A stretch of 48,514 nucleotides of DNA from Bacteroidales bacterium (lineage in GTDB: Bacteria; Bacteroidota; Bacteroidia; Bacteroidales; VadinHA17). The notes under the pieces were generated by a model. It saw only the letters and a list, made by a program, of their open reading frames with translations. It ran no database searches and was not told where the DNA came from. Positions within the stretch are counted from its first letter, which is position 1. Every line of letters starts with the position of its first letter. Both the position numbers and the translations under genes were made by a program. The stretch lies in contig JALOMO010000004.1 of the NCBI GenBank assembly GCA_025455395.1, forward strand, positions 1 through 48,514, written 5' to 3'. Shown here one piece after another: positions 19,702 through 37,246 of this stretch.

Positions 19702-20661
19702 TCAGACCCGGTAAATCTCTTTATTTACATACTTCATCAGACTGTTGAAGTCCTCATTCCTCATCATCTCCAGCAGGCTGTTGTGATCAAGTGACTTTGC
19801 CAGGTTATAAGCGCCCAGGGTTATTTCCGAATGCCGGTTAAAGAATTCAACGACATCAAAAATCCTGGGCGAGGCATCAGTGGTAAAGTACTTATCATAA
19901 TTGCATTGCTGTGCCCAGAACATCAGTTCCACATAGTGGAGAAAGTGCCGGCTTGCACCCACAAGATCCCAGTCAGCTTTAGTGTCATTATCATTTGTGT
20001 GGATATAGGCATCAAATCCTGACTCATATATAGTTACAAGTGCCTGGGCCGGATTTTCCTGGCTCTGGAGCGAGTGACCCATATCGAGGGTCACCCCTGT
20101 TGCAGGGTTTCCAACTTCCTTCAGAAGCAGCAGTGCTTTGGCAGTAGAGTCGAGCTGGCAATGAACCCTTGTTTCAGAATATTTTGGTTCAATGAAAAGA
20201 GGTATTTCGGGAAGGTAATCTGCAGCTTCACCAATGGCATCAACCATGTAGTTCCATGCCTGACGATAATTGACCTGGAAAAGAATATCGTAACCGTCAC
20301 TCAGGGGGCAGCAGGTGACGTGAGGAGCACCGACCGCCCTTGCATAATCCTTTGCCTTTTTTATCATTGACACGGCCCTGTCGCGTATCCCTTTATCTGG
20401 CCGGGTGAGGGCTCCCGGGACCCATTCGGATTCTTTCTTAATATTGACATTTATTGCAGCAAAGCAGAGATTCATTTCATCCATCATCTGTTTCGTCTCC
20501 GCCGGATCCCCGGTCTCGTAAGGGAAGACCATTTCCACACCATCAAAGCCCTCTATCCTCGACACTATTTCAAGTTTTTCCCTTGTTGTGGCCGGTTTCT
20601 GGTACTCTGAGAAACGATCCTGAGTCTTGCCCAGGAATCCTATTATCACGCCTTGTTTCAT
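19702..20661 (-). CDS. sugar isomerase/epimerase, xylose-isomerase-like TIM barrel
   Basis: Cytoplasmic TIM-barrel protein of the sugar phosphate isomerase/epimerase (AP endonuclease 2-like) superfamily, 319 residues, no signal peptide. Metal-site residues are visible: Glu158 in LFIEPKYSE, Asp193 and His196 in VTLDMGHS, and HTNDND near 220. It would interconvert an aldose and ketose or an epimer pair. It is the last gene of the minus operon, 42 nt after DhaL, and differs clearly from the second TIM-barrel gene at 22848-23711, so two distinct isomerisation steps are implied. Rhamnose-, xylose- or apiose-type isomerases and 3-epimerases all share this fold; specificity is open. Confidence 0.8.
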   Translation of the reverse strand: MKQGVIIGFLGKTQDRFSEYQKPATTREKLEIVSRIEGFDGVEMVFPYETGDPAETKQMMDEMNLCFAAINVNIKKESEWVPGALTRPDKGIRDRAVSMIKKAKDYARAVGAPHVTCCPLSDGYDILFQVNYRQAWNYMVDAIGEAADYLPEIPLFIEPKYSETRVHCQLDSTAKALLLLKEVGNPATGVTLDMGHSLQSQENPAQALVTIYESGFDAYIHTNDNDTKADWDLVGASRHFLHYVELMFWAQQCNYDKYFTTDASPRIFDVVEFFNRHSEITLGAYNLAKSLDHNSLLEMMRNEDFNSLMKYVNKEIYRV

Positions 20662-20703
20662 AGTTTAGTTTACTAAGTGTACAAAAATCAGGTGAGTGAA
20701 ATA

Positions 20704-21342
20704 TTACAACAGCAACTTAATTGATGACGCCATTGATTCGAGAATAATGCAGCACGATGCGGCCCCTGCGTCTATAACGCCTCTTGAGCGTTCTCCCAGC
20801 CTGCTTGCCCTTCCGATCCTTGCCACCATATCTTTTGTGCTGTCTCTTCCACTTCGGGCAGCCTCAGTCATCATGTCAAGCGCTTCACTGAATGACCCGC
20901 CTTCATCCAGGGCTTTCCTGAATGCGTTGACAGCCGGGGAGAGGGTGTCGATAAGGGTTTTGTCCCCAGGTCTGGCAGAAGAGATTTTACCGAGCTCCTC
21001 CATTACTGCCTCAAGAGAGGCCAGGAAATCCTCCTTCCCGATCTCAGTCTTACCCTCATACGATCGTGCAAGAGCACTGAAGAATTTGCCATACAGAGGA
21101 CCCATTGAACCCCCTATCTTCATCATAAGTATTTTTGAAAGGGTTCTGAATGAATGGGCCAGGTCTCCAGGCTCCCTGTCAAGAGCCTCACGGCACATGG
21201 TAAAACCCTTGTTCATATTAATGCCATGGTCACCATCACCAATGGCGCCATCAATATCGCTCAGGTATTGTTTTTCAGATTGAATAGCTATTATAAGCCT
21301 GTCCGCAACAATACTCCCTTCAGAGATCTTAAATGCCTGCAT
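20704..21342 (-). CDS. dhaL: dihydroxyacetone-kinase L subunit (DhaL domain)
   Basis: Nucleotide-binding subunit of a dihydroxyacetone-type kinase, 212 residues, all-helical. The hallmark IDGAIGDGDHGINMNKGF (about residues 30-47) carries the Asp residues that hold the ADP/ATP-Mg. Further family marks are GSMGPLYGKFF and the C-terminal DAGAASCCIIL. It is separate from DhaK rather than fused. Free-standing DhaL is typical of PTS-dependent enzymes, yet no DhaM or other PTS gene is nearby, so a two-subunit ATP-dependent kinase is likely. The neighbouring isomerases suggest the phosphorylated ketose may not be dihydroxyacetone itself (an erythrulose-type sugar is an alternative). It starts 12 nt after the DhaK stop. 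Confidence 0.9.
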   Translation of the reverse strand: MQAFKISEGSIVADRLIIAIQSEKQYLSDIDGAIGDGDHGINMNKGFTMCREALDREPGDLAHSFRTLSKILMMKIGGSMGPLYGKFFSALARSYEGKTEIGKEDFLASLEAVMEELGKISSARPGDKTLIDTLSPAVNAFRKALDEGGSFSEALDMMTEAARSGRDSTKDMVARIGRASRLGERSRGVIDAGAASCCIILESMASSIKLLL

Positions 21343-21354
21343 TTCTTCAATTAA

Positions 21355-22362
21355 TTAGTGATGCCTGAACTGACGCAATCCGACTGAATCTGCCTCATAA
21401 TCCATACATGACTTAAGCTCAGCGTCAAGTTTCATGATTGTGAGTGTGGCTCCTGACATCTCAAGTGAAGTAAAGTAGTTTCCTACATAAGAAAGGTATA
21501 CTTTAATTCCCCGTTGATCAAGTATTTTTACGACGTCGTTATAGAGTATATAGAGCTCCATTATCGGGGTGGACCCCAATCCGGAAATCAGCACCACCAC
21601 TTCGTCATCTCGCTTAAAGGGCAGGTCAGGGATGATCTCATCAGTCATTCTGGCGGCAATGGCAGATGATTTCTCAATGTCACTGACAGCTATTCCGGGT
21701 TCACCATGGTGACCTATACCCACTTCCATCTTACCCTCTTCGATGGTGAAGTTGGGATGCCCCACTTCTGGTATGGTACAGGGACTTAAGCCGACACCCA
21801 TGCTTCGAGTGTTATTGATTGCTTTCTGCGCAGCAGCAGTCACCTCGTCGAGGTTACCACCCATTGCAGCCTTTGCCCCGCCAACTTTCCACATCAGTAT
21901 TTCTCCTGCCACGCCCCGGCGCTTACCGGGTTCTGATGCCGGAGCAGAAGGGACATCATCATTTGCCACTACTTTGGTTACCCTTATGCCGTCTTCTTCA
22001 GCCTGTTCCATAGCCATGGCTACATTCATGTTATCCCCGGCGTAGTTGCCGTACAGGATGGCCACACCATTGCCGGCATCGGCTGCTCTTACGGCATCGT
22101 AGAACATCTGGGCGGGAGGTGAGGAGAATATCTCTCCCACAGCCACTGCATCAACCATATTCTTTCCGATGTACCCAATAAAGGCAGGTTTGTGGCCTGA
22201 TCCGCCACCTGTAACAATTCCAACCTTGCCTTTTACAGGCGCATGAATGTATTTCAGTACTCTCTCATTATCCGTTTCAGCAACCAGATCAGAGTGGGCC
22301 CTGATGAAGCCTTTAAGCATCTCATCCACTACTTCATGTGGTTGATTGATAATCTTTTGCAT
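21355..22362 (-). CDS. dhaK: dihydroxyacetone-kinase K subunit (DhaK domain)
   Basis: Ketose-binding subunit of a dihydroxyacetone-type kinase, 335 residues. Key residues line up with E. coli DhaK with an offset of one: His57 in GGGSGHKP, Asp110 in NYAGDNMN and His219 in GHHGEPG, the His that forms the hemiaminal bond with the ketone. NDDVPSAP and the KRRGVAGEILMWK block also fit the family. Unusual points are Lys after GGGSGH, where Glu is usual, and Phe61, where the common form has His; both lie near the substrate pocket and hint at a substrate other than dihydroxyacetone. It is packed between DhaL (12 nt) and the RpiB-like gene (7 nt). Confidence 0.92.
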   Translation of the reverse strand: MQKIINQPHEVVDEMLKGFIRAHSDLVAETDNERVLKYIHAPVKGKVGIVTGGGSGHKPAFIGYIGKNMVDAVAVGEIFSSPPAQMFYDAVRAADAGNGVAILYGNYAGDNMNVAMAMEQAEEDGIRVTKVVANDDVPSAPASEPGKRRGVAGEILMWKVGGAKAAMGGNLDEVTAAAQKAINNTRSMGVGLSPCTIPEVGHPNFTIEEGKMEVGIGHHGEPGIAVSDIEKSSAIAARMTDEIIPDLPFKRDDEVVVLISGLGSTPIMELYILYNDVVKILDQRGIKVYLSYVGNYFTSLEMSGATLTIMKLDAELKSCMDYEADSVGLRQFRHH

Positions 22363-22369
22363 AGTATTA

Positions 22370-22843
22370 TTATTTTTCGGGGTGAAACGATTTCCTTTCC
22401 AGCATCCTCATCTGTTCTACTTTCGGCAATGACCCGCCCTTCTCAAATTCAGCATTAAGCCAGGCGCTGACGATTGTCTTTGCCAGTTCGGTCCCTATTA
22501 CCCTTGAGCCCATTGTAAGAATCTGGGCATCATTACTTTTTCTTAATCTTTCTGCAGAATAAACATCATGACATACCCCTGCATAAACGGTTTCGACCTT
22601 ATTGGCTATCATTGCCATTCCCAAACCGGTACCACAGATCAGAATCCCTCTGTCAAACTCTTTATTCTTTATTTTGAGAGCAAGATTATAACCTACTTCA
22701 GGGTATAATGCACCTGGGTGTTTACCTGCATAGTCAAGGTCGGTAACATCGACACCTGAATCCAGCATGTGCTTAATTAGAACTTTTTTAAGGCTGACAG
22801 CTATATCATCACTGTCAATTGTGACACGAATTTTCATGTTCAT
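22370..22843 (-). CDS. rpiB: RpiB/LacAB-family sugar-phosphate isomerase
   Basis: Aldose-ketose phosphate isomerase of the RpiB/LacAB family, 157 residues, cytoplasmic. The active-site strand ILICGTGLGMAMIANK carries Cys70, the expected proton-transfer Cys. CHDVYSAERLRKSNDAQ (His92) and MGSRVIG match the phosphate-binding and dimer parts. The N-terminal motif differs from normal RpiB: SDDIAVSLKK stands where CDHAGxxLK is usual, so the conserved His is replaced by Asp13. The family includes ribose-5-P, galactose-6-P, allose-6-P and D-erythrulose-4-P isomerases. Linkage to DhaK/DhaL and a TIM-barrel isomerase favours a tetrulose or similar phosphate. The start may be Met1 or Met3. Confidence 0.88.
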   Translation of the reverse strand: MNMKIRVTIDSDDIAVSLKKVLIKHMLDSGVDVTDLDYAGKHPGALYPEVGYNLALKIKNKEFDRGILICGTGLGMAMIANKVETVYAGVCHDVYSAERLRKSNDAQILTMGSRVIGTELAKTIVSAWLNAEFEKGGSLPKVEQMRMLERKSFHPEK

Positions 22844-22847
22844 TTTC

Positions 22848-23711
22848 TTATTTTGTTAACTCAGGCATAATCCGCTGCAGGTATGAGAGGCTTTCCCGGA
22901 CCCACAAATCCGGGTCCTCGACAAATCCTCCGCTTGCTTCACTTCCCATTTCGATACCGGCAACGCAGGGTTCGCCATATTTCATGCAGTTTTCCTCGAT
23001 ACCCAGTTCAATCAGTTTGTCAATGTATGCTTTAAAGTCAACCACACCTGTCCCCAGGATGCTGTTGGTATGTGCAAATGACTCTGTTTCACTGAGGTGG
23101 ACATGTAGGAGTCTGCTTTTAAGTTTTTCAAGTTGGGCAGGTACTTCCCTGGTTATTACCAGGTGACCGACATCAACGTTAGGATATACATTTGGCAACC
23201 CGATGTCTTCCACTGCCTTTGCCAGTTTGTAGGTGTTATTGCATATGAAATAGACATGGGGGTCAAGTTCAATTCCAACAAGCAGATTTCTTTCCAGGCA
23301 CCATTCGGCAAACCGTCTTATATTTTCAACCATATTGAGCCATGATTGTTCAGGAGAGACCCCCAGTTCATAAAGTCCTCCACCCCAGCATACAAGGAGC
23401 TGACGGCCGCCCAGTTCCATCTGGAAATCGGCGCATGTTTTCATATAGTCAAGAACTGCATCACGTTTCCTGTGGTCAGGGTGCGCTGTATCTTTGGTAG
23501 CGACAAGCAGCATCTGTGTCACTTGAAGATCATTCTCTCTGACAATGGTTAATGTTTCTTTTTTTTCTGCAGCGGACATTGTCTGAGGGTTACCTTTTCT
23601 GATGCCGGCATATTCAATATAACGAAATCCGAATTTTACGGCACTTGAGAGTGATTCCGCAGGCCCTCTTCCGCCAACCTCATATACAAGAGTATTTAAA
23701 GCAAGTTTCAT
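22848..23711 (-). CDS. sugar phosphate isomerase/epimerase, TIM barrel
   Basis: Cytoplasmic TIM-barrel isomerase/epimerase (xylose-isomerase-like/AP endonuclease 2-like), 287 residues. Candidate metal ligands are Glu148 in GIELDPH, Asp180 and His183 in NVDVGH, His205 in LLHVHLSE, and a Glu near 252 in AGIEMG. It starts 39 nt after the upstream exported-barrel gene and ends 4 nt before the RpiB-like gene. In characterised erythritol/threitol pathways an isomerase of this type and an RpiB homologue act after a Dha-type kinase, converting erythrulose phosphates to erythrose-4-phosphate; the arrangement here fits that logic. Hydroxypyruvate isomerase or a 3-epimerase activity remains possible. 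Confidence 0.82.
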   Translation of the reverse strand: MKLALNTLVYEVGGRGPAESLSSAVKFGFRYIEYAGIRKGNPQTMSAAEKKETLTIVRENDLQVTQMLLVATKDTAHPDHRKRDAVLDYMKTCADFQMELGGRQLLVCWGGGLYELGVSPEQSWLNMVENIRRFAEWCLERNLLVGIELDPHVYFICNNTYKLAKAVEDIGLPNVYPNVDVGHLVITREVPAQLEKLKSRLLHVHLSETESFAHTNSILGTGVVDFKAYIDKLIELGIEENCMKYGEPCVAGIEMGSEASGGFVEDPDLWVRESLSYLQRIMPELTK

Positions 23712-23750
23712 TTTTTTGTTGATTTTAACACTAAACTAATGAATTTGACC

Positions 23751-24779
23751 CTACCGTGTAAGATCATTTTGCCGGGAAGTCAAATGTGAATTCACAGGCA
23801 AGAGCGCAGTCGTGACCGGCAAATTCCAGACAAGTTCTGACTTAAGCATGAAATGGTCATCTGTCCGGTTCAAATACATCCCCCTTGTGACACCTGTGCC
23901 GGAAATTCCTTCCCATTTTCCTATACCGTCAATAAATTCGTATGACCCTGGTCCCTTATTATACCACCATATATGCAGCAACCACACTACATCTCCGTCC
24001 TGGTCAGTATCTTCAAGGAGCATTATGTCGCCCAATGTTTTTCCGTTAAGTTTGACCGTATTCCCGCGGTCAAAACAGGTGGCATTGTTTCGGGGGCTGA
24101 CTTTGCCGGGGTCAAGCATGCTCATCAGCACTCCCGACTGGGTGCTGAATTCAAGTGAGATGCCATTTGAGAGCTCCTTTGAGAGAAGGAACACATGCGG
24201 TCCGTGAAAGCTGAGGCACTGGTCGGAGTATTTATACTTCTCCTTACCCGGTATCTGATCAGAGTTCGGAGCGTTTACAGGATCAATTTCCCATTGGATA
24301 TTATACTCAGGCATGATGAAGCCATCTGCTCTTTCTGTGTGGCGACCGGTTATTCTCCCGGTTCCTTTTATACCTGCCCACTTGCCTGTTCCCTGAACCA
24401 GTTGAAAGGTTCCGGGTCCCCGGTTACCATCAGGGTAATGAAGTACACTCCAGTTGAGATCACCATCTTTATCGCAGGCTTCGAATATTACCACCTCTTT
24501 CAGTTCTTTCCCGGATGAGTCTGTCAATATTGACCCATGGGCAAAGAGTGTGGCATTGAACCATGGACTGACAGTGTTTTCAGTAATAATCACCCCATCC
24601 TGAGTAAATGCAGTTATAAATACATCAGGTTTGATTCTTTTTGTTTTTATCACCTTGCGTGGTCCTGTCATATAGTACCCCGAATCACTGTTTTGCTTCG
24701 GTTGTGCGCCAGCATCACCTGTTGAGCATATTATTGAGGTAACGGCGCAAATTATTGCAGCAATAGTCCTTTTATGCAT
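23751..24779 (-). CDS. exported protein with two tandem allene-oxide-cyclase-like barrel repeats
   Basis: Secreted or periplasmic protein, 342 residues, signal peptide about 1-26 ending in AGAQ. It is an internal duplication. Repeat 1 (about 52-164) and repeat 2 (about 207-319) share the order NAT-F, DKDGD/DQDGD followed by W, GPGTFQLVQGTGKW versus GPGSYEFIDGIGKW, GIKGTG versus GISGTG, and a closing strand ending in W. The GxGxWxGIxGTG pattern resembles the small lipocalin-like barrels of the allene oxide cyclase-like/DUF3224 group, which bind or act on small hydrophobic or sugar-like ligands. The function here is unknown. Its place between MFS transporter and isomerase genes (9 and 39 nt gaps) suggests it serves the imported compound, as a binding protein or an isomerase/cyclase. 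Confidence 0.65.
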   Translation of the reverse strand: MHKRTIAAIICAVTSIICSTGDAGAQPKQNSDSGYYMTGPRKVIKTKRIKPDVFITAFTQDGVIITENTVSPWFNATLFAHGSILTDSSGKELKEVVIFEACDKDGDLNWSVLHYPDGNRGPGTFQLVQGTGKWAGIKGTGRITGRHTERADGFIMPEYNIQWEIDPVNAPNSDQIPGKEKYKYSDQCLSFHGPHVFLLSKELSNGISLEFSTQSGVLMSMLDPGKVSPRNNATCFDRGNTVKLNGKTLGDIMLLEDTDQDGDVVWLLHIWWYNKGPGSYEFIDGIGKWEGISGTGVTRGMYLNRTDDHFMLKSELVWNLPVTTALLPVNSHLTSRQNDLTR

Positions 24780-24788
24780 AGCAGAGAT

Positions 24789-26060
24789 TTATTGGTTTGT
24801 TTGCGGTTCGAGGGTTTTGTCAGGCTTCATAAAGAACCAGGCTGCCACAGCAACAAGAGAGAGCCCGGCACAGATAAAGAAGAATGTCTCATGCCCTCCT
24901 GTCCATTTATACATATAAGGGAAGGCTATGATGGTTACGAAGGCACCAAGATTCCCGGCCATATTCATTGTCCCGGATACAGTTGCGGCATTCTCCCTGC
25001 CGATATCGATACAGAATGCCCATGAGGGGCTCAGGGTCATGTCGGCGCCGAATATGGCAAGAGAGAGGAATATGATCGAGACCTGGGGGCTCTCTGCAAA
25101 TGCCATCATCATCATTCCTGTTGCTGCCAGTACAAAACCGATCACTGCGGGTATCCGTCGTGAAAGAGCAAGAGGCAACTTGCGGTAGAGGTAATCTACC
25201 ATGATTCCAGAGAACCAGTTGCCGGCAGCACCTGCCAGAAGAGGAGCCATTGCGAAGAAACCGGCTTCAAGGCCGTCAAGGGCAAAGCGGTTCTTAAGAT
25301 ATGGGTACATCCAGGTAAGAGTGAAATAGAATGTAAAATTGCTGCAGATGTACTGCAACATCGTAAGCCACATGTTCCCTGACCCGATGATTGTTGAGAA
25401 TGAAAGTCTTCCTGCTGCAGTCTTGTCCTGCTGCTGCCTGTTGGAAATAATATACTCCTTTTCTTTTTCGCTTATAATTGATGATTCTTCGGGCCTGTTC
25501 CTGAAGAGCAGGTACCACAAAAAGGCAAAAATCACACCTGCCACTCCGAGAAGTGCAAATGTGTGCCTCCATCCGGTAAGAGATATTAACCACGCGATAA
25601 GAGGAAGGGCAAAAGCAGCCCCGATACGCGAACCGGAAAAGTTTATTCCCTGTACGATTCCTCTCTCTCTTACAGGAAACCAGGAGTATGTGACTTTAGC
25701 GAGGGCCGGGAATGCCCCTGCTTCACCCCCTCCGAAGACGAATCTGATGATGAGAAGAGAGGTGTAATTCCAGGCTGCTCCTGTCAAGGCGGTAAGAGCT
25801 GACCAGAAAGAGACAATCCAGGTAATAACGGCACGGGGGCCAAATTTATCAGCAAGCTTGCCGGAGGGAGTCTGAAAGAGTGCATATCCGAGGGTGAACA
25901 TTGCCATTATCCAGCCAAATTGTGTGGCAGAAAGGTTCAGATCTCCTGAAATATCGTCTTTAGCCACTGATATTACAGTTCTGTCGATATATAACAGTAC
26001 GGTGAGAAGGAATGATCCCAGCACAAGAAAAATCCTGAAGGGAAGTAGGGTCTTTTTCAT
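24789..26060 (-). CDS. MFS transporter, anion:cation symporter (ACS/hexuronate-type) family
   Basis: Inner-membrane carrier of 423 residues with about 12 hydrophobic helices. The N-terminal half shows ACS-family marks: LLYIDRTVISVAKDDI, TQFGWIMAMFTLGYALFQTPSGKLADKFGPR (loop 2-3 motif) and FGGGEAGAFPALAKVTYSWFPVRERG, which is very typical of hexuronate, galactonate and glucarate permeases. It would import an anionic sugar acid, in line with the two alpha-glucuronidase-like enzymes of the plus block, although neutral substrates are not excluded. It lies 26 nt after the GH27 gene and 9 nt before the duplicated barrel protein. Confidence 0.88.
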   Translation of the reverse strand: MKKTLLPFRIFLVLGSFLLTVLLYIDRTVISVAKDDISGDLNLSATQFGWIMAMFTLGYALFQTPSGKLADKFGPRAVITWIVSFWSALTALTGAAWNYTSLLIIRFVFGGGEAGAFPALAKVTYSWFPVRERGIVQGINFSGSRIGAAFALPLIAWLISLTGWRHTFALLGVAGVIFAFLWYLLFRNRPEESSIISEKEKEYIISNRQQQDKTAAGRLSFSTIIGSGNMWLTMLQYICSNFTFYFTLTWMYPYLKNRFALDGLEAGFFAMAPLLAGAAGNWFSGIMVDYLYRKLPLALSRRIPAVIGFVLAATGMMMMAFAESPQVSIIFLSLAIFGADMTLSPSWAFCIDIGRENAATVSGTMNMAGNLGAFVTIIAFPYMYKWTGGHETFFFICAGLSLVAVAAWFFMKPDKTLEPQTNQ

Positions 26061-26086
26061 ATTTGTTCCTGGTTCTTGGGTTGGGG

Positions 26087-27490: not shown

Positions 27491-27546
27491 GGCTCATTTA
27501 ATTAGTTTAAACATTCCCAGGTTTTATCTTCCATAGGATATTACCG

Positions 27547-28434: not shown

Positions 28435-28445
28435 AAGTTCTGTTT

Positions 28446-30980
28446 TTACTTCAGTTCTTTCTTAATCTGAACGGCGTGTTCGTTGTAAGTGTAATAATGA
28501 TTACCCCTCTTTTTGTAATCGGAGCTTATGCTTTTACCGGTTTCAAGCACAACATGCTCTTCATCACATATCTTTACCGTAAGGTTAAGATTGTTTGTCA
28601 CTGCAGAGCTAAGGCTTATCGTCTCCCTGTCAATGACGACGGTTATCATCTGGCTCTTATAGAAGAAATTATATTTAAGCCTGTTCCATCCCTTGGGCAA
28701 TATGGGGTTGAATGTCAATATCCCATCATCGATACCGAATCCTGCGAAGCCATAGTGCACCACCTGCCATGTTCCTCCAGAAGGGGCAATGTGAACACCG
28801 CCCAGCTGGAAGTTGGCCTTCTTTGCAGGGTTGGCACTTTCCAGGTCAATTCTGGCTGACCTGAGGAAGTACCAGAGGGCACGGTCAACACGCCCCACCT
28901 GTGCTGCAACGATACCGTAGGCATTGGGACTGTCACCGGAACCGTGCTCTGTCCTGAGGTCATAATAGTCAAACGTTGCTTTTCTGACTATCGGATGAAA
29001 CTCATCCCTGAACATCACCAGCATCTGTATCGTGTCAGCCTGCTTTATTATCTGTGTATGTACAGCCGGACCAACTGGATAACCCAGGTATTCGTCACGT
29101 ATTATCCGGCTCTTGAATTCCTCGAGGGAGATATCTTCGAGTTCAAAGTATCCGTCATGCTGTTCAATAACCTTCGTTACCGGGTCGGGTTCTTTGAGAA
29201 ACATCTTATCAATTATATCTCGCCAGTATTCAAGCTCACTTTCAGTGATCTTGTGAAGCTCCTTAAGCTTTTTAAGCTTGGCAGGAGACCTCTCCTCCAT
29301 CATTTTGAGGCACTCAAATGCCTTTTCTATTGAGTGCAGCAGTATTCTGTTGGTATAGGCATTGTTTGCAACCTCTTCATGATATTCGTCGGGGCATGTT
29401 GTATGAAGGATTTCATACCTTTCCTTTGGCACTTTGTAATAGACGAGGGAACTGACAAACCGAGCTGTAAGCAAAGTCATCCGGGCACCATAATTCTCAA
29501 TGAAGTCCCAGTCTCCTGTAAGATCAAAATACTGCCATACGGCGTATATCACATCGCCGGCGATATGCCACTGACGGTCGCCAAAGTAATTGCGCATCAT
29601 ACGGCCGCTGTGGATATCCTGCCAGACAAATTTCTTAGTGGCTTCCTCGCCCGTATCAAGTGACTCCCATGCATAGAAAGCACCATCAAAACCAAGGTCC
29701 GTCGCTTTTTTGATCGCATACTCAAGGGCATTGTAGCGATACATGAGAATATTCCTTGCATAATCAGGGAATACTACTGCATAGAAAGGGAAGGCGTATG
29801 TGTCAACCTCCCAGAAGATGGCACCCTTATATGTGGCATATGAAAGTGAGCGTGAAGGTATGGCAGCATAATCGAAACCTTTGGGTACAGAGATGAGCAG
29901 GATATATAGATTGTAGCGCATGAAAAGCTCTGACTTCTTTACTCTGTTCACGTCAGCATTGAGCTCTTTCTCGAGGTGGGCAACTTCATCTTCGGGTTTG
30001 ACAAGCCCGTATTTAACTTCCCTCTTTACCCTGCCGCTCAGAAAATCTTTCATCTCCGCCCGGAGATGGTTATCGATATATGGTTCATCAGTTTCAATTT
30101 CAACGTTTGCTATTTCCCAGTTTTTCTCGAGTTCAGCGATGTGTTTCTTCCTCTCTTCTTCGAAACTGAATGCGGCTGTGAGTGCGTTTGCGACGGGGTC
30201 CATTGAGTCACGGCTTGTGAACAGCGTGTGCTGGCTTGTTACCGTGAACTCAACTGTTTTTTTGAGCTTAATGGAAAAGAGCTGTCGTACCTCCTCCTCG
30301 CCTGTAACAATTTTGCTGCCGGCCGGAGAGGAGAGTGTATGTTTGCTGCTTATTGCGATGGCATATTTATGCTGTTGTGTTTTTGCAGTAAGAATATATC
30401 CGCCATCGCATTCACCGGTTGAGAAGTCTGACAGATGCTTTCCGTTTGCATCAAAGACATCACCTGTTATTCCCGGGCTGTATTCAAGCACTGCATCACC
30501 GTCATGGCAGGTTGCGGCAAATCGGTTCCAAACCAGATTTTTATTATGATAGGTACAGAATCTCTCAATCCTGACATTGAGTTTCTTTCCTGTTTTGGCC
30601 TTGAATATATATTCAAGTGTAAGGATGGCACTTCTCATGTCAAGTGTGATGCGAAAGTTCTCGCAGTTGTCTCCTTCGCGGTTCAGAAAGACCTTCTCTC
30701 CGTCGAAGGTCAGAGGAGCGCTCATGAAATCAGGCATATTGATAATCTCCTTCCAGATGTCCTTTGAGGGATCATCATATCCAAGCTGGTCATAGATACC
30801 AATGCAGTGAATTGAGCTGTCAACCTTTTCATCAAAAAGCTCGCTGAAACAACCGCGAACACCGACAAAACCATTTGCGATAAGTGCAAGGTGATTTCGA
30901 CCTACAATCTTTTTTCCATCTTTAAAATAGCCCTGATAGTCGAGTTTATCAAGCTCTATTATCCAATTCCTGTTGTTCAT
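28446..30980 (-). CDS. GH65 glycoside phosphorylase/hydrolase, cytoplasmic
   Basis: Family-65 enzyme, 844 residues, no signal peptide. Most members phosphorolyse an alpha-glucoside (maltose, trehalose, kojibiose, nigerose, glucosylglycerol or glucosylrhamnose) to beta-glucose-1-phosphate. A beta-sandwich N-domain (about 1-290), an (alpha/alpha)6 barrel (about 330-750) and a C-terminal beta domain are visible. The catalytic acid is Glu532 in TCPDEYHEEVANNAYTN. The region TEHGSGDSPNAYG corresponds to the phosphate-binding loop and supports a phosphorylase more than a hydrolase. It sits between GH36 (10 nt upstream) and PfkB kinase (11 nt downstream), so it probably handles the same imported oligosaccharide. 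The acceptor sugar is unknown; a non-glucose donor would be unusual. Confidence 0.9.
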   Translation of the reverse strand: MNNRNWIIELDKLDYQGYFKDGKKIVGRNHLALIANGFVGVRGCFSELFDEKVDSSIHCIGIYDQLGYDDPSKDIWKEIINMPDFMSAPLTFDGEKVFLNREGDNCENFRITLDMRSAILTLEYIFKAKTGKKLNVRIERFCTYHNKNLVWNRFAATCHDGDAVLEYSPGITGDVFDANGKHLSDFSTGECDGGYILTAKTQQHKYAIAISSKHTLSSPAGSKIVTGEEEVRQLFSIKLKKTVEFTVTSQHTLFTSRDSMDPVANALTAAFSFEEERKKHIAELEKNWEIANVEIETDEPYIDNHLRAEMKDFLSGRVKREVKYGLVKPEDEVAHLEKELNADVNRVKKSELFMRYNLYILLISVPKGFDYAAIPSRSLSYATYKGAIFWEVDTYAFPFYAVVFPDYARNILMYRYNALEYAIKKATDLGFDGAFYAWESLDTGEEATKKFVWQDIHSGRMMRNYFGDRQWHIAGDVIYAVWQYFDLTGDWDFIENYGARMTLLTARFVSSLVYYKVPKERYEILHTTCPDEYHEEVANNAYTNRILLHSIEKAFECLKMMEERSPAKLKKLKELHKITESELEYWRDIIDKMFLKEPDPVTKVIEQHDGYFELEDISLEEFKSRIIRDEYLGYPVGPAVHTQIIKQADTIQMLVMFRDEFHPIVRKATFDYYDLRTEHGSGDSPNAYGIVAAQVGRVDRALWYFLRSARIDLESANPAKKANFQLGGVHIAPSGGTWQVVHYGFAGFGIDDGILTFNPILPKGWNRLKYNFFYKSQMITVVIDRETISLSSAVTNNLNLTVKICDEEHVVLETGKSISSDYKKRGNHYYTYNEHAVQIKKELK

Positions 30981-30990
30981 TTATTTATGT

Positions 30991-32967
30991 TTATCCGGTT
31001 ATCTTTTTCGGTTGCCATCCCTTTTCGAAGGGTTTATCGTTCAGATAGAAGAGTGCCGATTCATGAGGATTCAGACATATAGAAATCGTTCCGTTCAGCT
31101 GAATATTTTCTTCTGTTCTCCATTCGATTGCGTTGGAGCCACTGATACCCAATAGTTCGAGCGGGTATTTTTTTTCTATTCTGGTTTCACCATTATTGAA
31201 GAAAAAGAGAATACCCATTGCATTATCCTTCCGCGTACCACCATAAATGACAAGTTCAGTTTCACGGCCGAGCAGAAGCGGTCTGAATTCAACTGCATTA
31301 TTGTCACCTGCAAGGAATTTGAAAAGATCAAGTCTGTGTTGAGGGCATTCATCAACATAGTCAGAGGTCATGATCATGCCCTGGGCAATTCCCATGTAGA
31401 GAGCCAGTGAGGTAGCCTCAACTTCGGTAATTTTTGTCTCCCACGTGCGCAGCAAAACACAATCCGGATCAACCTCATAGAACCGGTGATTTGTAAAATT
31501 ACGCAAAGCCAGGTCATTGAGGAGTTCTTTTGGGCTATTGTGGGCTACCCACCTGGCGCCGACGTCACGTGATACTCTCATGCAATCGACATACCCCACA
31601 GATGCCCAGATTGGCTGGCCGCACCCGAGCCAGATACTATCCTCCCCGATCTCTTCCCTGATCATCTTGAGAACGTCAGTGAAATACTCCATCCTGGTCT
31701 TGCCCGGGGTATGACGCCTGATAAGCGGCCGCTTTGACTTGTCGGTTATCAGGTTGTGCTTGTTGAGCCCGTCATGGAACCAGCCTCCCTCAAAGCGGTC
31801 CATTGAGCCCCAGAACATGAAATCGGTCTTGAAGTACCTGTAACCCCACTTCCTGTAAGTACGGAAGACGTATCTGAGGTATTCGAATGCTTCAGGATTG
31901 GAAGTATCAAGACAATAATGAATTTTTGACCTGTAGCCCCATACATTATCCTCTCCCAGCGGATTCATGAACTCAATAAGCTCACCTTCCTGATCCCTGC
32001 ACAGCCAGTCGGGGTGTTCCCTGAAGAGTCTGCTTCTGTCAGCCACCATCCATGGTCCTATCCAGATACCGGGAGTATAACCTGCCTTTGTTATTTCTTG
32101 CGCATAATACTCCATCCCTTTCGGGAATTTGCTGTCAGGCCAGAGCCAGTCGCCAAGGTGTTCGAAATGATTTGCATCAATTACGAATACATTCAGATTA
32201 AGGTCTTTACGATAGGGGGCAAATTTCTCAAGGTGCCTCTCAAGAATCTCTCCGCTGAACCAGAAGTAATCATAATACCATGAACACCATCCTGTTGTGG
32301 CTGGTTTCGTAAGTCTGATATTGTTTGTTTTTACCACCAGATCAGCCCACTTTTTTTGAGCGAGGTCAAGATCATCATGCTTAAAAAATACGATCTCGGA
32401 GAAATCAATACTATTAATTCCACCGAGATATTTTCCCTCAAGGAACATTTCAGTAGTGGCAAAGAGTTGGTTTCTCTCCTTTCTGTATCTGAAAGTCTGA
32501 AACATCCTGTCATGGGTGAGGTATCCGGAAAGGGCGATACCGGAAGAGCTGAGGACAACTCCGATGGCGCTGGCTTCAGCCTCGATAATGTCGCCGGCAT
32601 CATACAGAAAACTCTGATCCCAGCTGAAGTAACCATGTGCCAATAGTTTTTCTACTCCTGTCACATATGCATTATCAAACACTGAGACCTTCTCAATCCG
32701 CTCAGTCTTTATCTTATCGATAGTTGTGCGAAGAGAAAGATACTGGTCCTTAACAAGAAAATGGAGAATAAGATTAAAACAGGAAGTACGGTATGTTATT
32801 ACAACAGAGTCAGGATCTGACAAGAGTAAAATATCCTTATTGCTTACAGGTTTTCCATCCACCGAAGGGTAACATTGGTAATAACCTGTTTGACCCATTA
32901 TAATGTCATAGTGGCCGTCATCATAGATATTCAGACAACACTCTTTCTGGAAAATGATTTGTGGCAT
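30991..32967 (-). CDS. GH36 alpha-galactosidase-like enzyme, cytoplasmic
   Basis: Family-36-type retaining alpha-galactosidase, 658 residues from ATG 32967 (MPQIIFQ). An in-frame extension to 33078 would overlap the symporter gene and adds no sensible sequence, so the shorter start is preferred. A beta-supersandwich N-domain (about 1-240) precedes the TIM barrel, which begins at TTGWCSWYYDYFW. The nucleophile is Asp382 in YFKTDFMFWG, and the likely acid/base is Asp468 in MRVSRDVGARW. There is no signal peptide, so it acts on imported oligosaccharides; raffinose-type synthases share this fold and are an alternative. It follows the symporter by 47 nt and precedes GH65 by 10 nt. Confidence 0.88.
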   Translation of the reverse strand: MPQIIFQKECCLNIYDDGHYDIIMGQTGYYQCYPSVDGKPVSNKDILLLSDPDSVVITYRTSCFNLILHFLVKDQYLSLRTTIDKIKTERIEKVSVFDNAYVTGVEKLLAHGYFSWDQSFLYDAGDIIEAEASAIGVVLSSSGIALSGYLTHDRMFQTFRYRKERNQLFATTEMFLEGKYLGGINSIDFSEIVFFKHDDLDLAQKKWADLVVKTNNIRLTKPATTGWCSWYYDYFWFSGEILERHLEKFAPYRKDLNLNVFVIDANHFEHLGDWLWPDSKFPKGMEYYAQEITKAGYTPGIWIGPWMVADRSRLFREHPDWLCRDQEGELIEFMNPLGEDNVWGYRSKIHYCLDTSNPEAFEYLRYVFRTYRKWGYRYFKTDFMFWGSMDRFEGGWFHDGLNKHNLITDKSKRPLIRRHTPGKTRMEYFTDVLKMIREEIGEDSIWLGCGQPIWASVGYVDCMRVSRDVGARWVAHNSPKELLNDLALRNFTNHRFYEVDPDCVLLRTWETKITEVEATSLALYMGIAQGMIMTSDYVDECPQHRLDLFKFLAGDNNAVEFRPLLLGRETELVIYGGTRKDNAMGILFFFNNGETRIEKKYPLELLGISGSNAIEWRTEENIQLNGTISICLNPHESALFYLNDKPFEKGWQPKKITG

Positions 32968-33014
32968 ATAATTCTCTCTATTATTTTTTGCTGTGGTTCT
33001 TAGGCATTCATTTA

Positions 33015-34814
33015 CTAAGTTACAAATACTGAGAATACAAGCATCAATATAAGCATAAGGAGGAAGCTGATAGCCCACCAGAAACCGACACTCCTTAGTA
33101 ATGGCATTTTTTCTCCTTTCACAACGGTTACCTTATTCCAGTTGAATGTCAGATCATCCGATACCTGCTCAGGAGCGGGAGGCGGGGTTAACATTGCTGA
33201 GACAGATGCAATTATCATAGCACATGCCCATACAATCAGCCCCTGGTTTGCGAAAGGTCTGATGAAGTTTGCAAGGGGAGCAGTGGAGTCAGCCAACGGG
33301 CCAAGTTCCAGGTATTTGAGAATTCCTGCAATAGCAAATGAGACAATGACTGCCAGGAAAGCATCTCTGCCGTTTACTCTCCTCCACAGCATGCCAATAA
33401 GGAATATCGCTGAGAATGGGGGAGCAATAAAGGTGTACATCGTCTGTATGTAAACGAAAATATTAATTTTTGTCAGCGCAAGAATAATTGCCAGTGCGAT
33501 TGAAAGTAAAAGAATTATCGTACCCGATAGGCGACCTATCATTATTTCACGTTTATCGGAAGCGTTTTTGTTGATATATTCCTTATAAATATCTATCGTG
33601 AAAATTGTCGAAGTCGAGTTAAGTACTGAGCTGATTGTACTCTGTATTGCACCGAAAAGAGCTGCCATCAGGATACCGGTAAGGACGACCGGGACAAGCT
33701 TTCCAATCAACAGAATGTATGTTTTATTTGTCTCCTGGTTCATGGTCGCCCAGTCATTTCCAAGGAGGAATTCAGGCTTCATTGCAAAGAAAATGAGTCC
33801 GGGAATTACAACAATGAAAGGAAGCAGAAGCTTGAGGAATGAGGCAAGGACCATCCCCATCCGGGCATGATATATATCTTTTGCAGCAAAGACTTTCTGT
33901 ATCATATGCTGATTAATGACAGTATACCATAATCCGATATAGAAAAAGCTGAAAACCCAGTGTGTCCATGGTGTAGTTGAATGATTAAAAGGCTGAAGCA
34001 CTGATAGCCTATGATACTCTGCACCCTCTCCAGCACCCTTTAGCATATTTGAAACGTTTTCAGAAAGCCACTGAGCCGCCCATCCTTCCTGGGCTCTGTT
34101 AGCTTCAACCATGGTTGAGAAGCCCTTAATTATTCCTTCCCCGGCACCAAGGTGCATCAGCCCCAGGAATGTAACGGCAAGACCTCCTCCAATCATAATG
34201 AAGATCGTAAGAAGGTCCATCCACGCAACTGATCTCAGTCCGCCCCAGATAGCCCATATTCCTGAGGCAAATGCAATAAGCCCGATTGAAAGGAAAAGTC
34301 CCCAGTTAATAGCGTTACCTGCATTTATTGAGGCTGTATCAAGTCCGAAAAGCGAGTTGAATTTAAGTGCTTCCTCAACAATAAGGCCTCCTCCGTAAAT
34401 AACCGGTGCCATAAAAGCAGAGATATTGGCGAGAAGGGTTATGGAGGCAAAGAGAAACCGCATTTTTCTGCTGAATCTTTTCTCAAGGAATTCAGGTGTT
34501 GTATATACTTTGGAGTTCAGGAGGAATGGAATAAATATCCATATCAGAAACGTAAATGCAATTACGGAGCTCCACTCAGGAGTAGCTACGACGATCCCGT
34601 ATAGAACCGCTGCTCCGATCATCCCAATGAAGTGTTCCGTACTGATATTCGCAGCTATGTATGAGCTTCCGACTACATACCAGGGCAATGATTTCCCGGC
34701 AAGGAAATAGTCAGATGATACGCTCTTCTTAGATCTTCCGAACCACCATCCTATAAGGCTCAATGCTATAAAGTATCCGAAGAAGGATACATAATCCAGT
34801 AGTTTTAATTCCAT
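33015..34814 (-). CDS. sodium/solute symporter (SSS/SGLT-type) for sugars
   Basis: Inner-membrane symporter of 599 residues with about 14 hydrophobic segments. The N-terminus has SDYFLAGKSLPWYVVGSSYIAANISTEHFIGMIG, characteristic of the SGLT branch of the sodium/solute symporter family (residues of the Na and sugar sites lie here). The last helix is at the extreme C-terminus after an extended hydrophilic loop beginning TPPPAPEQVSDD. It would couple Na+ entry to uptake of a galactose-like sugar or short alpha-galactoside, feeding the cytoplasmic GH36 and GH65 encoded just downstream. There are 27 nt between it and the upstream glycosidase-like gene. Confidence 0.9.
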   Translation of the reverse strand: MELKLLDYVSFFGYFIALSLIGWWFGRSKKSVSSDYFLAGKSLPWYVVGSSYIAANISTEHFIGMIGAAVLYGIVVATPEWSSVIAFTFLIWIFIPFLLNSKVYTTPEFLEKRFSRKMRFLFASITLLANISAFMAPVIYGGGLIVEEALKFNSLFGLDTASINAGNAINWGLFLSIGLIAFASGIWAIWGGLRSVAWMDLLTIFIMIGGGLAVTFLGLMHLGAGEGIIKGFSTMVEANRAQEGWAAQWLSENVSNMLKGAGEGAEYHRLSVLQPFNHSTTPWTHWVFSFFYIGLWYTVINQHMIQKVFAAKDIYHARMGMVLASFLKLLLPFIVVIPGLIFFAMKPEFLLGNDWATMNQETNKTYILLIGKLVPVVLTGILMAALFGAIQSTISSVLNSTSTIFTIDIYKEYINKNASDKREIMIGRLSGTIILLLSIALAIILALTKINIFVYIQTMYTFIAPPFSAIFLIGMLWRRVNGRDAFLAVIVSFAIAGILKYLELGPLADSTAPLANFIRPFANQGLIVWACAMIIASVSAMLTPPPAPEQVSDDLTFNWNKVTVVKGEKMPLLRSVGFWWAISFLLMLILMLVFSVFVT

Positions 34815-34841
34815 CAGTTAGTATATTGTATATTGATTATT

Positions 34842-36086
34842 TTATTTAATGAAAATGTCGCCGTCGCGTTCCGGAACCGTGAACTCCTTTCCAACAGAAC
34901 CATCAGAAGCGCGTTTTCTCTCTTCATTGAATATCACTGTAACAGCAGAATTGGAGTAGTGGTTATAGACAACTGTTCCCCTTTCAAACTCTCTCCATGA
35001 TGATCCATCCTCTTTATCAACCCTGTTTCCAAGAGGTTTTCCGAGACTTACATCCCAGAAAGGATACCAGTCATGAAGATGATCGGGTGTTTTGAGAGGA
35101 TTCGGGTCAGCATACAGGACATAACCATTTGAGTGTGTCAGGCCAAGTGTTGTAGTTGCCCTCATTCGCTGGAGGTCGTCACGGTTTCCCCATACCTCAA
35201 GACAGTTGATGGTCGGTTTCTGCAGGCTGTCCTCAAACCATACCAAAGCTTCCCTTATCCTGTCCCAGGATCTTTTATTGGCGTCCTCACGGTTGAACAT
35301 GACGAGCTCTTCGACCGGCATACTCAGGGAATCAACTGGATTAAGCTCCATGAAAGAGCCGTTGATATAGTCTTTATAGAGCCTGCCGTCTTCAATATCA
35401 TCATGGATGTTAACCATTATTAAAGCAGAGTCTCCAATGGCAGCTCTGATCTTTTTGATTATCTCAAGGTGGCCGCTCCAGTCAAGCATCACGCCATCGT
35501 ATACGCCTGACTCAATGGAGATTTTTGCCTGTCGGGCCACATTATCCTGGAATTCAGGGTTGTCATAATTCAGTTTGTAGAATGGTTCCCATCCGCCCAG
35601 CCAGCCTTTGACAATTGTCCCGGAGGAATCTCTCAGCCACCACGGGCTGTCTTCAGGAAGGAAGCTCATAGGGGCATCTCTCCACCGTATTTCAAAAAGA
35701 AACACCATGTTAGGATTAATTTTCAATGCCTCTGCTCGATTAGCCAGGGCCTGTTCAAGGCTTTCCATGGTGAAGCTATCGGCAAGGCCATGGTGTTTAT
35801 TATCCCATACCAGCCCAAGAACAAGGTCATATCCCTCTCCCAACTGGCTGAGCGGTTCTTCGAAAATAAGGTCATGTTTTGCGGCTACTGACACTCTCTG
35901 CTGGTTGGTTTCCAGCGGAAACTCCGGCATGTCAACAGGGTACCATGCCTGAAAGATGGATGGGAAATCACGACCATCAATCCTTTCTGCAATCGAGTCT
36001 TTGTCCGGCTGAGGTGAATTACAGGATGAAGCTGTTAGTAAGCCAAATCCGGCAATAATAGTCATTAATTTATTCTTCTTCATCAA
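34842..36086 (-). CDS. exported putative TIM-barrel glycoside hydrolase (GHL-type)
   Basis: Lipoprotein-type exported protein, 414 residues, signal ending in TASSC. The body reads as a TIM barrel: YDLVLGLVWDN, NMVFLFEIRWRDAP, FQDNVARQAKISIESGVYDGVMLDWSGHLE, and later GYVLYADPNP and WYPFWDVSLGKP. A short beta tail carries RGTVVYNHYSNSAVTVIF, as found at the end of hypothetical glycosidase family GHL15-like proteins. The Asp of DGVMLDW is the best catalytic candidate. The family has no firmly known substrate that I can name. As the second gene of the minus operon, 62 nt after the oxidoreductase, it may act with GH27 on the substrate before import. Confidence 0.6.
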   Translation of the reverse strand: MMKKNKLMTIIAGFGLLTASSCNSPQPDKDSIAERIDGRDFPSIFQAWYPVDMPEFPLETNQQRVSVAAKHDLIFEEPLSQLGEGYDLVLGLVWDNKHHGLADSFTMESLEQALANRAEALKINPNMVFLFEIRWRDAPMSFLPEDSPWWLRDSSGTIVKGWLGGWEPFYKLNYDNPEFQDNVARQAKISIESGVYDGVMLDWSGHLEIIKKIRAAIGDSALIMVNIHDDIEDGRLYKDYINGSFMELNPVDSLSMPVEELVMFNREDANKRSWDRIREALVWFEDSLQKPTINCLEVWGNRDDLQRMRATTTLGLTHSNGYVLYADPNPLKTPDHLHDWYPFWDVSLGKPLGNRVDKEDGSSWREFERGTVVYNHYSNSAVTVIFNEERKRASDGSVGKEFTVPERDGDIFIK

Positions 36087-36148
36087 TTCTTTATGTTAAT
36101 AATGAACTCTATATTATAATATTAAGCCCGTACAACAAGGCCACATAA

Positions 36149-37246
36149 TCAATTATCTCTGATTTGAACTCCCATTTTTCTGAGGTCATCAATGATTCTG
36201 GTTTCCTCAACTATATTACCCATTAAATATATACCCGGTATATTTATTGTCCGGTCAAGATATTGGTTTAAACAAGCAATGAGGGCAAGGGATGTAAATT
36301 CAAATGCGTCCGGAGAGTGACACTCCAGAACATAATCTTTGTATAATCCGTCTTTCATTCCTTTCGCAAGCAATTTGAATTCTACACCTGGCTTTCCTGT
36401 ATAGTATTTATTAATGCCCCAATGCATCAATTTCCCCGATAACTTTGTCCCCATGCCTTTTTTTATAGATTGCAGCAGCATTGTCAAGGGAAATACGAAA
36501 TTGTCAACAAAGGCATTGAAACCGGCTGAGTAAACCCCCATATTTTTAATACCAAGCTCCTTTTCTAGCGGGTAAACTTCTCTCATCTGCAAAGGATAGC
36601 ATTTCCGTACTCCGAATTCTTCAGAAAATTGAATGTTCAATGCATCTTTGTATGATGACTTTAACCATAGACTATTTTTCAGGATTTTTGCATTTGATGC
36701 TCCGATCTCATTTATAATCTCATGAGTAGATTCGGGTTTTTCAAATTTTGAGTTCATGACCATTACCACATTAGCAGTCTGGTAATCATCGAACTTGTTT
36801 TTAGCATATTTGATAAATGGGGCAGGAAGCCCGGGATGAAATCCGGCTTGGGTGATAAAGATTCTCTTTTTGGAAACAATGTTTTCACGAAATTCTGTAA
36901 GCTTATCAACCACGTCGCCACGAACAAGAATATCAATCATGTCCGTATCAGTTTCAATTGCTGTCTCTGCAATTGTTCCAATATGATCAGGAGTTGTTGT
37001 TGCAACAATTACCAGATCGACATTCTTTAGAGCAATAATAAGACTGCCTCTATCAGTTGCATCTGCGTAAATAGTTTTTATCTGACGATTGGGGTGCTCT
37101 TTTCGCAGGCGATTGGCAACAGTTTCAGCTTTTTCCAGGTTACGACCTGCAATTGTAATGTCAGTAGTTGTATGCTTTAGAAGGTTCTCTGAAATGACTT
37201 TTCCAACGCCACCATAACCACCCAATACCATTATGTGTTTTTTCAT
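36149..37246 (-). CDS. saccharopine-dehydrogenase-like NAD(P)-binding oxidoreductase
   Basis: Cytoplasmic protein of 365 residues. A Rossmann fold opens with MVLGGYGGVGKVISENLL and the NADP-type strand DITIAGRNLEKAE, followed by a substrate domain with ITQAGFHPGLPAPFIKYA. This is the layout of the saccharopine dehydrogenase / trans-acting enoyl reductase superfamily, whose members act on amino acids, polyamines or lipids; the substrate here is unknown. It is the first gene of the minus operon, or a separate unit just upstream, since the 62-nt gap to the next gene is the operon's largest. Its sequence is noticeably more AT-rich than its neighbours, so later acquisition is possible. Confidence 0.75.
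   Translation of the reverse strand: MKKHIMVLGGYGGVGKVISENLLKHTTTDITIAGRNLEKAETVANRLRKEHPNRQIKTIYADATDRGSLIIALKNVDLVIVATTTPDHIGTIAETAIETDTDMIDILVRGDVVDKLTEFRENIVSKKRIFITQAGFHPGLPAPFIKYAKNKFDDYQTANVVMVMNSKFEKPESTHEIINEIGASNAKILKNSLWLKSSYKDALNIQFSEEFGVRKCYPLQMREVYPLEKELGIKNMGVYSAGFNAFVDNFVFPLTMLLQSIKKGMGTKLSGKLMHWGINKYYTGKPGVEFKLLAKGMKDGLYKDYVLECHSPDAFEFTSLALIACLNQYLDRTINIPGIYLMGNIVEETRIIDDLRKMGVQIRDN

Follow-up and report, generated by a model that had tools for sequence, protein, structure and literature searches.

A DhaK/DhaL and RpiB-like gene block in a Bacteroidales genome as a candidate catabolic unit for a four-carbon sugar

Introduction

What sugar is served by a gene run that sets a dihydroxyacetone-kinase-like pair, an RpiB-like isomerase and two TIM barrels directly beside enzymes of alpha-glycoside use? 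The question is raised by a Bacteroidales bacterium (lineage VadinHA17; GenBank assembly GCA_025455395.1, 3.47 Mb in 207 contigs, 89.1% complete), in which positions 1-48514 of contig JALOMO010000004.1 form the window, the whole 48,514-nucleotide stretch analysed here. A minus-strand run within it had been read, in an initial annotation, as one integrated pathway. Comparison with relatives leads us to divide most of the run into module A (19702-26060: TIM1, DhaL, DhaK, RpiB, TIM2, a secreted-looking protein and an MFS transporter) and module B (26087-34814: GH27, PfkB, GH65, GH36 and an SSF symporter). We propose that module A serves to break down a four-carbon sugar, a scheme to which, taken as a whole, we give a probability of roughly 0.45; its kinase and phosphate-isomerase steps, predicted from sequence to lead to erythrose-4-phosphate, we regard as probable. 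It is most likely a new variant of tetritol-type catabolism, whose kinase/isomerase core is supported by comparison and whose starting sugar we infer.

Results

The run was confirmed on the minus strand from 19702 to 37246, with gaps of 4-62 bases between open reading frames (ORFs) as bounded in the ORF list: genes from 36086 down to 19702 are spaced 4-56 bases apart, and the next, at 36149-37246, lies 62 bases away. The initial annotation had described it as nearly gapless and without a polyol dehydrogenase, and this held, as did the families it named; the GH27 gene and three further genes had escaped it and were added by Pfam and NCBIfam scans, which otherwise confirmed its gene list. In Pfam terms both TIM barrels are AP_endonuc_2 proteins, and further matches are to Dak2, Dak1, LacAB_rpiB, MFS_1, PfkB, GH65, Melibiase (GH36 type) and SSF. 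No polyol (tetritol) dehydrogenase model, as would be expected in the cluster of a tetritol pathway, matched within 19702-37246 in these scans. Module A is made up as follows.

19702-20661, minus strand: TIM1, a 319-aa TIM barrel resembling aldose-ketose isomerases (PF01261; PDB 3ktc, 6e-26)
20704-21342, minus strand: DhaL-type kinase subunit (PF02734; TIGR02365)
21355-22362, minus strand: DhaK-type subunit, proposed tetrulose (D-erythrulose) kinase (PF02733; clade placement)
22370-22843, minus strand: RpiB paralogue, proposed D-erythrulose-4-phosphate isomerase (PF02502; active-site residues)
22848-23711, minus strand: TIM2, a 287-aa TIM barrel resembling ketose 3-epimerases (PF01261; model folds)
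23751-24779, minus strand: secreted-looking 342-aa protein between TIM2 and the MFS gene (no Pfam match at E<=1)
24789-26060, minus strand: MFS transporter resembling D-galactonate transporters (PF07690; TIGR00893 below cut-off)

When the window DhaK was searched against named genomes of bacteria and archaea, 54 loci labelled with many phyla were obtained, at 58-79% identity in the best segment; many are short metagenome-bin contigs whose phylum labels, for example Kiritimatiellales for L012, may be wrong. The window DhaL belongs to TIGR02365 (171.4 bits, cut-off 138.3). In DhaK, the E. coli residues H56, D109 and H218 are conserved and K104 is replaced by Gly, all four being positions that we presume to have roles in the E. 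coli enzyme. In a tree of 33 hand-chosen rows, known by sequence and context alone and rooted at the midpoint with E. coli on a long branch, the window DhaK falls into a clade of 26 with support of 100/100 and a long stem. All seven of the rows used that are linked to an SDR or D-threitol dehydrogenase (DthD) belong to this clade, which includes neither the E. coli DhaK nor the SorC-fused ones. The SDR adjoining the clade DhaK of L043 passes the GolD/DthD cut-off (352.7 vs 286), and the corresponding neighbours in Shinella and Thalassospira are annotated 'D-threitol dehydrogenase' and 'GolD/DthD family dehydrogenase'. Clade and neighbourhood thus support a predicted tetrulose kinase, and because clade DhaKs are linked to D-threitol dehydrogenases, we infer a preference for D- over L-erythrulose.

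The RpiB paralogue points the same way. We aligned 51 DhaK-linked RpiBs (the window, 46 from the 54-locus set, L062, L106, L072 and L073), numbered after E. coli RpiB, leaving aside repeat copies of the window (L001, L002, L066, L109) and of L072, L073 and L057 (L068, L069, L070, L074). The window protein keeps Cys66, has Asp for His10 and has Ser for both His99 and His134. Cys66 and Ser at position 99 occur in all 51; Ser at 134 occurs in 49 of 49 readable sequences, and His10 in none of 50 (37 Asp, 8 Glu, 3 Pro, 2 Asn). These proteins are related, with identity to the window RpiB going down to 32%, and do not represent 51 independent events. The comparison and reference RpiBs were hand-picked: five from 60 plasmid records listed of 708, together with E. 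coli and the second copy of the genome itself. His10 and His99 are both retained in the five RpiBs of the usual kind, which come from E. coli, from Citrobacter and Listeria (each encoded next to rpe), from S. meliloti and, as the second copy, from the present genome; at 134 S. meliloti has Phe and the other four have His. Ser at 10, 99 and 134 recurs in an R. etli RpiB whose operon also encodes OiaX and a TpiA homologue and which is assigned by that context alone, and in a Roseibium RpiB (L116) identified only by gene order and context in an erythritol-type operon, the gene roles of which we presume.

The window RpiB thus has the tetrulose-phosphate-type (EryI/DerI-like) pattern, with Cys66 kept and His10 and His99 lost. 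A study of T. cruzi RpiB names His102 and His138 as ring-opening residues (PMC4882579), and one of a fungal RpiB describes Asp17, at a position usually His or Asn, together with Ser109 for the His102 equivalent, with shorter-chain substrates suspected (PMC3212906). In our own reading of the alignment these residues would correspond to E. coli positions 99, 134 and 10. Erythrulose, according to PMC12780249, forms no ring, so the His-to-Ser pattern fits a tetrulose phosphate. The active-site pattern supports the proposed RpiB step, as do a second RpiB of the usual His pattern and a full-length transketolase elsewhere in the genome. The tetrulose-phosphate route to erythrose-4-phosphate via DhaK/DhaL and RpiB, as the initial annotation had it, is supported by the DhaK clade, the RpiB residues and the D-threitol-dehydrogenase neighbours. 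The pattern may also offer a simple annotation marker that separates tetrulose-phosphate from ribose-5-phosphate isomerases.

The two TIM barrels differ from one another. The TIM1 model is nearest to 3ktc, then to L-rhamnose isomerase and xylose isomerase, and E158, K160, D193, H196, N223-D224-N225, D230, D232 and D262 are invariant across 14 sequences, residues that we presume to map onto those of xylose isomerase. Fold and metal-site residues place TIM1 in the xylose/rhamnose-isomerase-like class and suggest a metal-dependent aldose-ketose isomerase. TIM2, 75-85% identical in nine relatives, has UlaE and D-tagatose 3-epimerase as its nearest folds and matches the same proteins weakly in sequence; the fold of its model agrees with the ketose 3-epimerase class, and on this ground it may be a ketose 3-epimerase. 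In other phyla a psicose-epimerase-like protein, about 27% identical to TIM2 and below the PsicseEpim cut-off (204 bits vs 300), adjoins DhaK in 5 of the 55 loci tallied below, which favours an epimerisation step. The MFS transporter scores 261 bits on TIGR00893, below the cut-off of 395.

How tightly is module A tied to its neighbours? For a tblastn tally we took 56 loci (the 54 plus L072 and L073) and dropped L058, whose DhaK match was too short, which leaves 55; L003, L004, L071 and L074 were left out. Matches had E<=1e-10 over at least half of the query, and flanks reached at most 10 kb, less on several shorter contigs, so that distant linkage could be missed. DhaL accompanies DhaK in 51/55 loci and RpiB does so in 47, within 2 kb in 44; the counted RpiBs of L054 and L041 lie 5.4 kb (other strand) and 9.0 kb away, respectively. 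TIM1, TIM2 and the MFS transporter (45-70% identical) are each found in 11. All six of these genes occur together in L005 (Draconibacterium sediminis), L006, L008, L018, L031, L057, L072 and L073, some with inserted genes. The block thus recurs, in conserved gene order, in distant Bacteroidota, without the secreted-looking protein, which had no match in the 55 loci; partial versions occur in Opitutales, where the MFS gene is missing, and in Kiritimatiellales, where TIM2 is.

Around the same 55 DhaKs there was no match to the window GH27, PfkB, GH65, GH36, GHL15 or saccharopine-dehydrogenase-like (SacDH) genes, and SSF matched once, at 28% identity and 9.1 kb distance. Because module A is conserved without module B genes, we treat the kinase and isomerase genes as an independent unit; from these sequence comparisons the GH36/GH65 set looks like a local neighbour, and the join of A to B may be particular to the present genome. 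We accordingly rejected module A as a conserved partner of GH36 and GH65. The initial annotation had tied the isomerase module to alpha-galactoside-type hydrolases and GH65 and had named a lack of conserved linkage in relatives as refuting that idea; within these flanks no such linkage was seen.

Other neighbours were less constant than RpiB: a GntP permease (18/55), a GarR-type enzyme of the 2-hydroxy-3-oxopropionate-reductase type (17/55), a GntR/FCD regulator (8/55), a Zn alcohol dehydrogenase (5/55, in one case at 9.8 kb and on the opposite strand), a DthD-type SDR (5/55, two weak or distant) and an FGGY kinase (2/55, 22-25% identity). The R. etli TpiA, the Rhizobium transketolase halves TktN and TktC, ApnO and OiaX had no match in the 55 loci. 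In favour of the initial annotation, proteins resembling hydrolases (families F21, F28 and F26) are encoded within module A or next to it in eight of the 13 loci that have TIM barrels, so the sugar may come from a glycan of a different kind; Pfam searches of the three families gave no informative match by which the glycan might be identified, and F28 proteins carry a Collagen_bind_2 domain. In L073 a DUF5060/Collagen_bind_2 protein (12540-14423) is inserted between DhaK and DhaL.

The distribution of the block is patchy. Within the window's family a DhaK match occurs in 3 of 117 genomes, the present one included, and the other two are 47-48% identical and outside the window clade; across the order, five of 295 genomes have TIM2, again including its own, the other four at 78-81% identity. 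This pattern suggests horizontal transfer. In rumen and gut Bacteroidales (L010, L013-L015, L019-L021, L023, L024, L027, L028, L035, L036, L051, L053 and partial relatives) the RpiB-DhaK-DhaL trio is accompanied by a GntP permease, the 2-hydroxy-3-oxopropionate-reductase-type enzyme and a 332-aa protein that matches no Pfam family, the last two forming a single 636-aa frame in three genomes (L014, L028 and L051); this set perhaps carries out oxidative decarboxylation of a pentonate to erythrulose. On two marine alphaproteobacterial plasmids (L059, L060) a TIM1 homologue (34%) is found together with another TIM barrel and a transporter of the TRAP type.

Module B and the genes at the 5' end of the run are as follows.

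26087-27490, minus strand: GH27, module B, nearest to beta-L-arabinopyranosidase (PF16499/PF17801; 4nx0, 3cc1)
27547-28434, minus strand: PfkB-family kinase, module B (PF00294)
28446-30980, minus strand: divergent GH65, module B, phosphorylase or hydrolase (Pfam; PDB matches)
30991-33078, minus strand: GH36-type enzyme, module B, without signal peptide by eye (PF02065; 1zy9, 9e-47)
33015-34814, minus strand: SSF-type symporter, module B (PF00474)
34842-36086, minus strand: GHL15-like protein flanking the 5' end, N-terminus lipoprotein-like by eye (PF14885)
36149-37246, minus strand: SacDH, a saccharopine-dehydrogenase-like NADP-binding protein flanking the 5' end (PF03435)

We propose that module B is a separate glycoside-use set standing in front of module A in the present genome. 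The apparent overlap of its GH36 and SSF genes, the only one in the run, is probably due to a too-early GTG start, that is, a wrong start codon. Among solved structures the GH27 protein, whose N-terminus looks like a signal peptide, is matched best by 4nx0, the beta-L-arabinopyranosidase Abp (1.3e-127), and by 3cc1, a putative alpha-N-acetylgalactosaminidase (5.5e-120), while the top chain with alpha-galactosidase in its name reaches 2.3e-37; it has D-Y where alpha-galactosidases have a 'DD' motif. L-arabinose use via TIM1 was considered, in view of the enzyme that GH27 resembles, and rejected: AraA lies elsewhere in the genome, and both the DhaK clade and the RpiB residues indicate a four-carbon sugar. 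The nearest solved relative of GH36, 1zy9, is an alpha-galactosidase.

For the GH65 protein the closest PDB entries are 4ktr/4ktp, titled 'Glycoside hydrolase family 65 central catalytic', followed by kojibiose phosphorylase. We take 4ktr/4ktp to be a 2-O-alpha-glucosylglycerol phosphorylase, so this relative may act on glucosylglycerol; for the glyceryl or floridoside unit suggested in the initial annotation, module A gives no support. Its best-scoring outside match in a 395-genome phylum sample, own genome included, is 3e-88 with 38% identity over residues 338-811. Read against the specificity and phosphate-binding residues named in PMC8537180 and PMC8626586, our alignment keeps the kojibiose pair Trp391-Glu392, replaces Thr417 by Phe and Pro402 by Lys, and has Gly for one of two phosphate-binding serines. 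Given this mixed pattern we claim neither a kojibiose phosphorylase nor a hydrolase. None of the order's 294 other genomes matched GH65 at E<=1e-100, none of the 394 others in the phylum sample matched GH36 at E<=1e-90, and at these strict cut-offs there were no usable orthologues that could show module B on its own.

GC content is even across the join of the two modules and locally low (0.37) in the saccharopine-dehydrogenase-like gene. The assembly yielded no 16S rRNA gene by which the organism might be placed. The secreted-looking protein inserted between TIM2 and the MFS gene has two similar halves by eye. On either side of the run (1-17502 and 37475-47463) lies a mostly plus-strand island with GH97, three GH43 and four sulfatase genes, one of the sulfatases on the minus strand, and with Sde182-like and PhoD-like proteins; in L006 and L016, too, module A has Sde182-like genes at its side.

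Discussion

Module A is a compact candidate pathway of transporter, isomerase, epimerase, kinase and phosphate isomerase. In the scheme that we propose, the MFS transporter would import the sugar or a precursor, and TIM1, judging by its fold and conserved residues, would turn an aldotetrose (threose or erythrose) into erythrulose. TIM2 would then convert L-erythrulose into D-erythrulose, replacing the L-erythrulose kinase/TpiA-like branch of described pathways. DhaK with DhaL would phosphorylate D-erythrulose to D-erythrulose-4-phosphate, a step in which a tetrulose is supported and the D form is our extrapolation, and the RpiB paralogue would isomerise the product to D-erythrose-4-phosphate for the housekeeping transketolase. 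The proposed sequence, from an (L-)aldotetrose through L-erythrulose, D-erythrulose and D-erythrulose-4-phosphate to erythrose-4-phosphate, gives every module A enzyme a job. A literature search turned up nothing that links a threose or erythrulose epimerase to a Bacteroidota gene cluster, a weak absence, as subscription papers were mostly outside its scope.

Several observations weigh against this scheme. Among the genes of the locus that we considered, none was shown to make or release a tetrose, and tetroses are described as rare in nature in PMC12780249. The window DhaK falls below the TIGR02363 cut-off (359.6 bits vs 406.25), and the RpiB below that of NF051858, the rhizobial D-erythrulose-4-phosphate isomerase DerI (138.3 vs 240); Asn at RpiB position 10 is not diagnostic, since His or Asn is usual there according to PMC3212906. 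The R. etli oxo-isoapionate locus is itself near a tetrulose route, yet its DhaK does not fall into the window clade, so other tetrulose kinases may differ from this clade, and the tree does not fix a preference for D- or L-erythrulose. Both TIM barrel models are of middling confidence (pLDDT 75 for TIM1 and 78 for TIM2), with weak loops, and the better-understood homologues of TIM1 sit in an apiose-type locus. L012 has TIM1 without TIM2, as might fit an optional stereochemical adaptor. Finally, the MFS protein resembles acid-sugar carriers, and the GntR/FCD regulators, together with a mandelate-racemase-type enzyme upstream in L006, hint at an acid.

The last of these points leads to an acid-sugar route, in which a C5 acid or keto acid is imported and TIM1 or TIM2 helps to convert it, with loss of CO2, to erythrulose for the kinase and RpiB. 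It would account for the galactonate-type MFS transporter, for the regulator and for the rumen relatives, with their GntP permease and reductase-type enzyme (the L035 copy scoring above its curated cut-off), and the OiaX operon carries an RpiB of the same pattern. But module A has no dehydrogenase, and the nearest folds of TIM1 are neutral-sugar isomerases; we consider this route unlikely. We judge much the same of a D-apiose route. Here TIM1 would yield the branched tetrulose D-apulose for phosphorylation by DhaK/DhaL, and cleavage would fall to a transketolase encoded elsewhere; RpiB and TIM2 would be accessory, unless TIM2 took off the branch carbon. With 29% identity, TIM1 is distantly homologous to an isomerase in a Rhizobium locus with a split transketolase and an FGGY kinase, and that isomerase matches 3ktc at 9e-126. 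The Collagen_bind_2 domain of the F28 proteins is also known from GH140 apiosidases, but F28 has no match to an apiosidase-like Pfam domain even at E<=1. A single split transketolase pair is encoded in the present genome, on contig C80 (L125, 743-6358), directly after GH28 polygalacturonase-like proteins, one with a GH43-like part (by eye); its halves share 44% and 38% identity with those of the Rhizobium locus. The Rhizobium locus is laid out like the apiose clusters (apsI, aptA, aptB, aplK) in PMC13001218. Against this, the Rhizobium transketolase halves gave no match around the 55 DhaKs, the interval has neither FGGY kinase nor transketolase, the branched C3 carries no hydrogen to epimerise, and the RpiB step would lead nowhere useful. 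We also speculate, as a very improbable extension, that TIM1 converts D-apiose to D-apulose (3-C-hydroxymethyl-tetrulose) and TIM2, by the enediolate chemistry of a 3-epimerase, releases formaldehyde from the branch position, so that erythrulose remains for the kinase and RpiB to use. Such a branched-to-linear pathway, if true, would account for the presence of a tetrulose core in the same operon as a TIM1 that resembles apiose isomerase and a TIM2 that resembles 3-epimerases; to our knowledge the formaldehyde expulsion would be a new reaction for the fold.

It is improbable, in our view, that imported alpha-glycosides release an unusual ketose for module A in one integrated pathway, as first suggested: the gapless common strand and even GC speak for it, and the lack of module B families around DhaK in relatives, bar one distant SSF, speaks against it. 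The least probable alternative is a plain dihydroxyacetone kinase with a bystander RpiB. It agrees with the family names, but the DhaK clade stands apart from E. coli DhaK, and RpiB, with its altered residues, accompanies DhaK in 47 of the 55 loci; we rejected dihydroxyacetone kinase identity on these two grounds.

How does the proposed four-carbon route compare with known systems? The Klebsiella and Salmonella plasmid clusters L062 and L106 are close in their core (in L062, RpiB 53%, DhaK 65% and DhaL 55% identical to the window). They differ in carrying an alcohol dehydrogenase and a transaldolase, in Klebsiella also a transketolase, in having no TIM barrel annotated in the stretches shown, and in an MFS protein without blastp match to that of the window at 1e-3. 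D-apiose catabolism, reportedly described by Carter et al. 2018 (cited in PMC13001218), shares with module A an isomerase that is a remote homologue of TIM1, and an OiaX operon has an RpiB of the window pattern; the non-oxidative apiose pathway is unlike it in that no transketolase pair, OiaX or ApnO was found in the 55 loci and no FGGY kinase in module A. The alphaproteobacterial erythritol operons, reportedly described by Barbier et al. 2014 (cited in PMC12780249), have an RpiB paralogue with Ser replacing the ring-opening His (Roseibium L116, by gene order), whereas module A has a Dak-type kinase for the free ketose in place of both a polyol kinase and epimerisation at the phosphate level. 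A further comparison is with the D-threitol, L-threitol and erythritol catabolism of Mycobacterium smegmatis (Huang et al. 2015, cited in PMC12780249 and PMC10733421), in which an erythrulose kinase and an RpiB homologue reportedly lead to erythrose-4-phosphate; the kinase there would be of Dha type. Module A has the same kinase and isomerase types, and relatives of its DhaK adjoin D-threitol dehydrogenases; unlike that pathway, no polyol dehydrogenase or TpiA-like isomerase was seen, and isomerase-type and 3-epimerase-type TIM barrels would act upstream instead.

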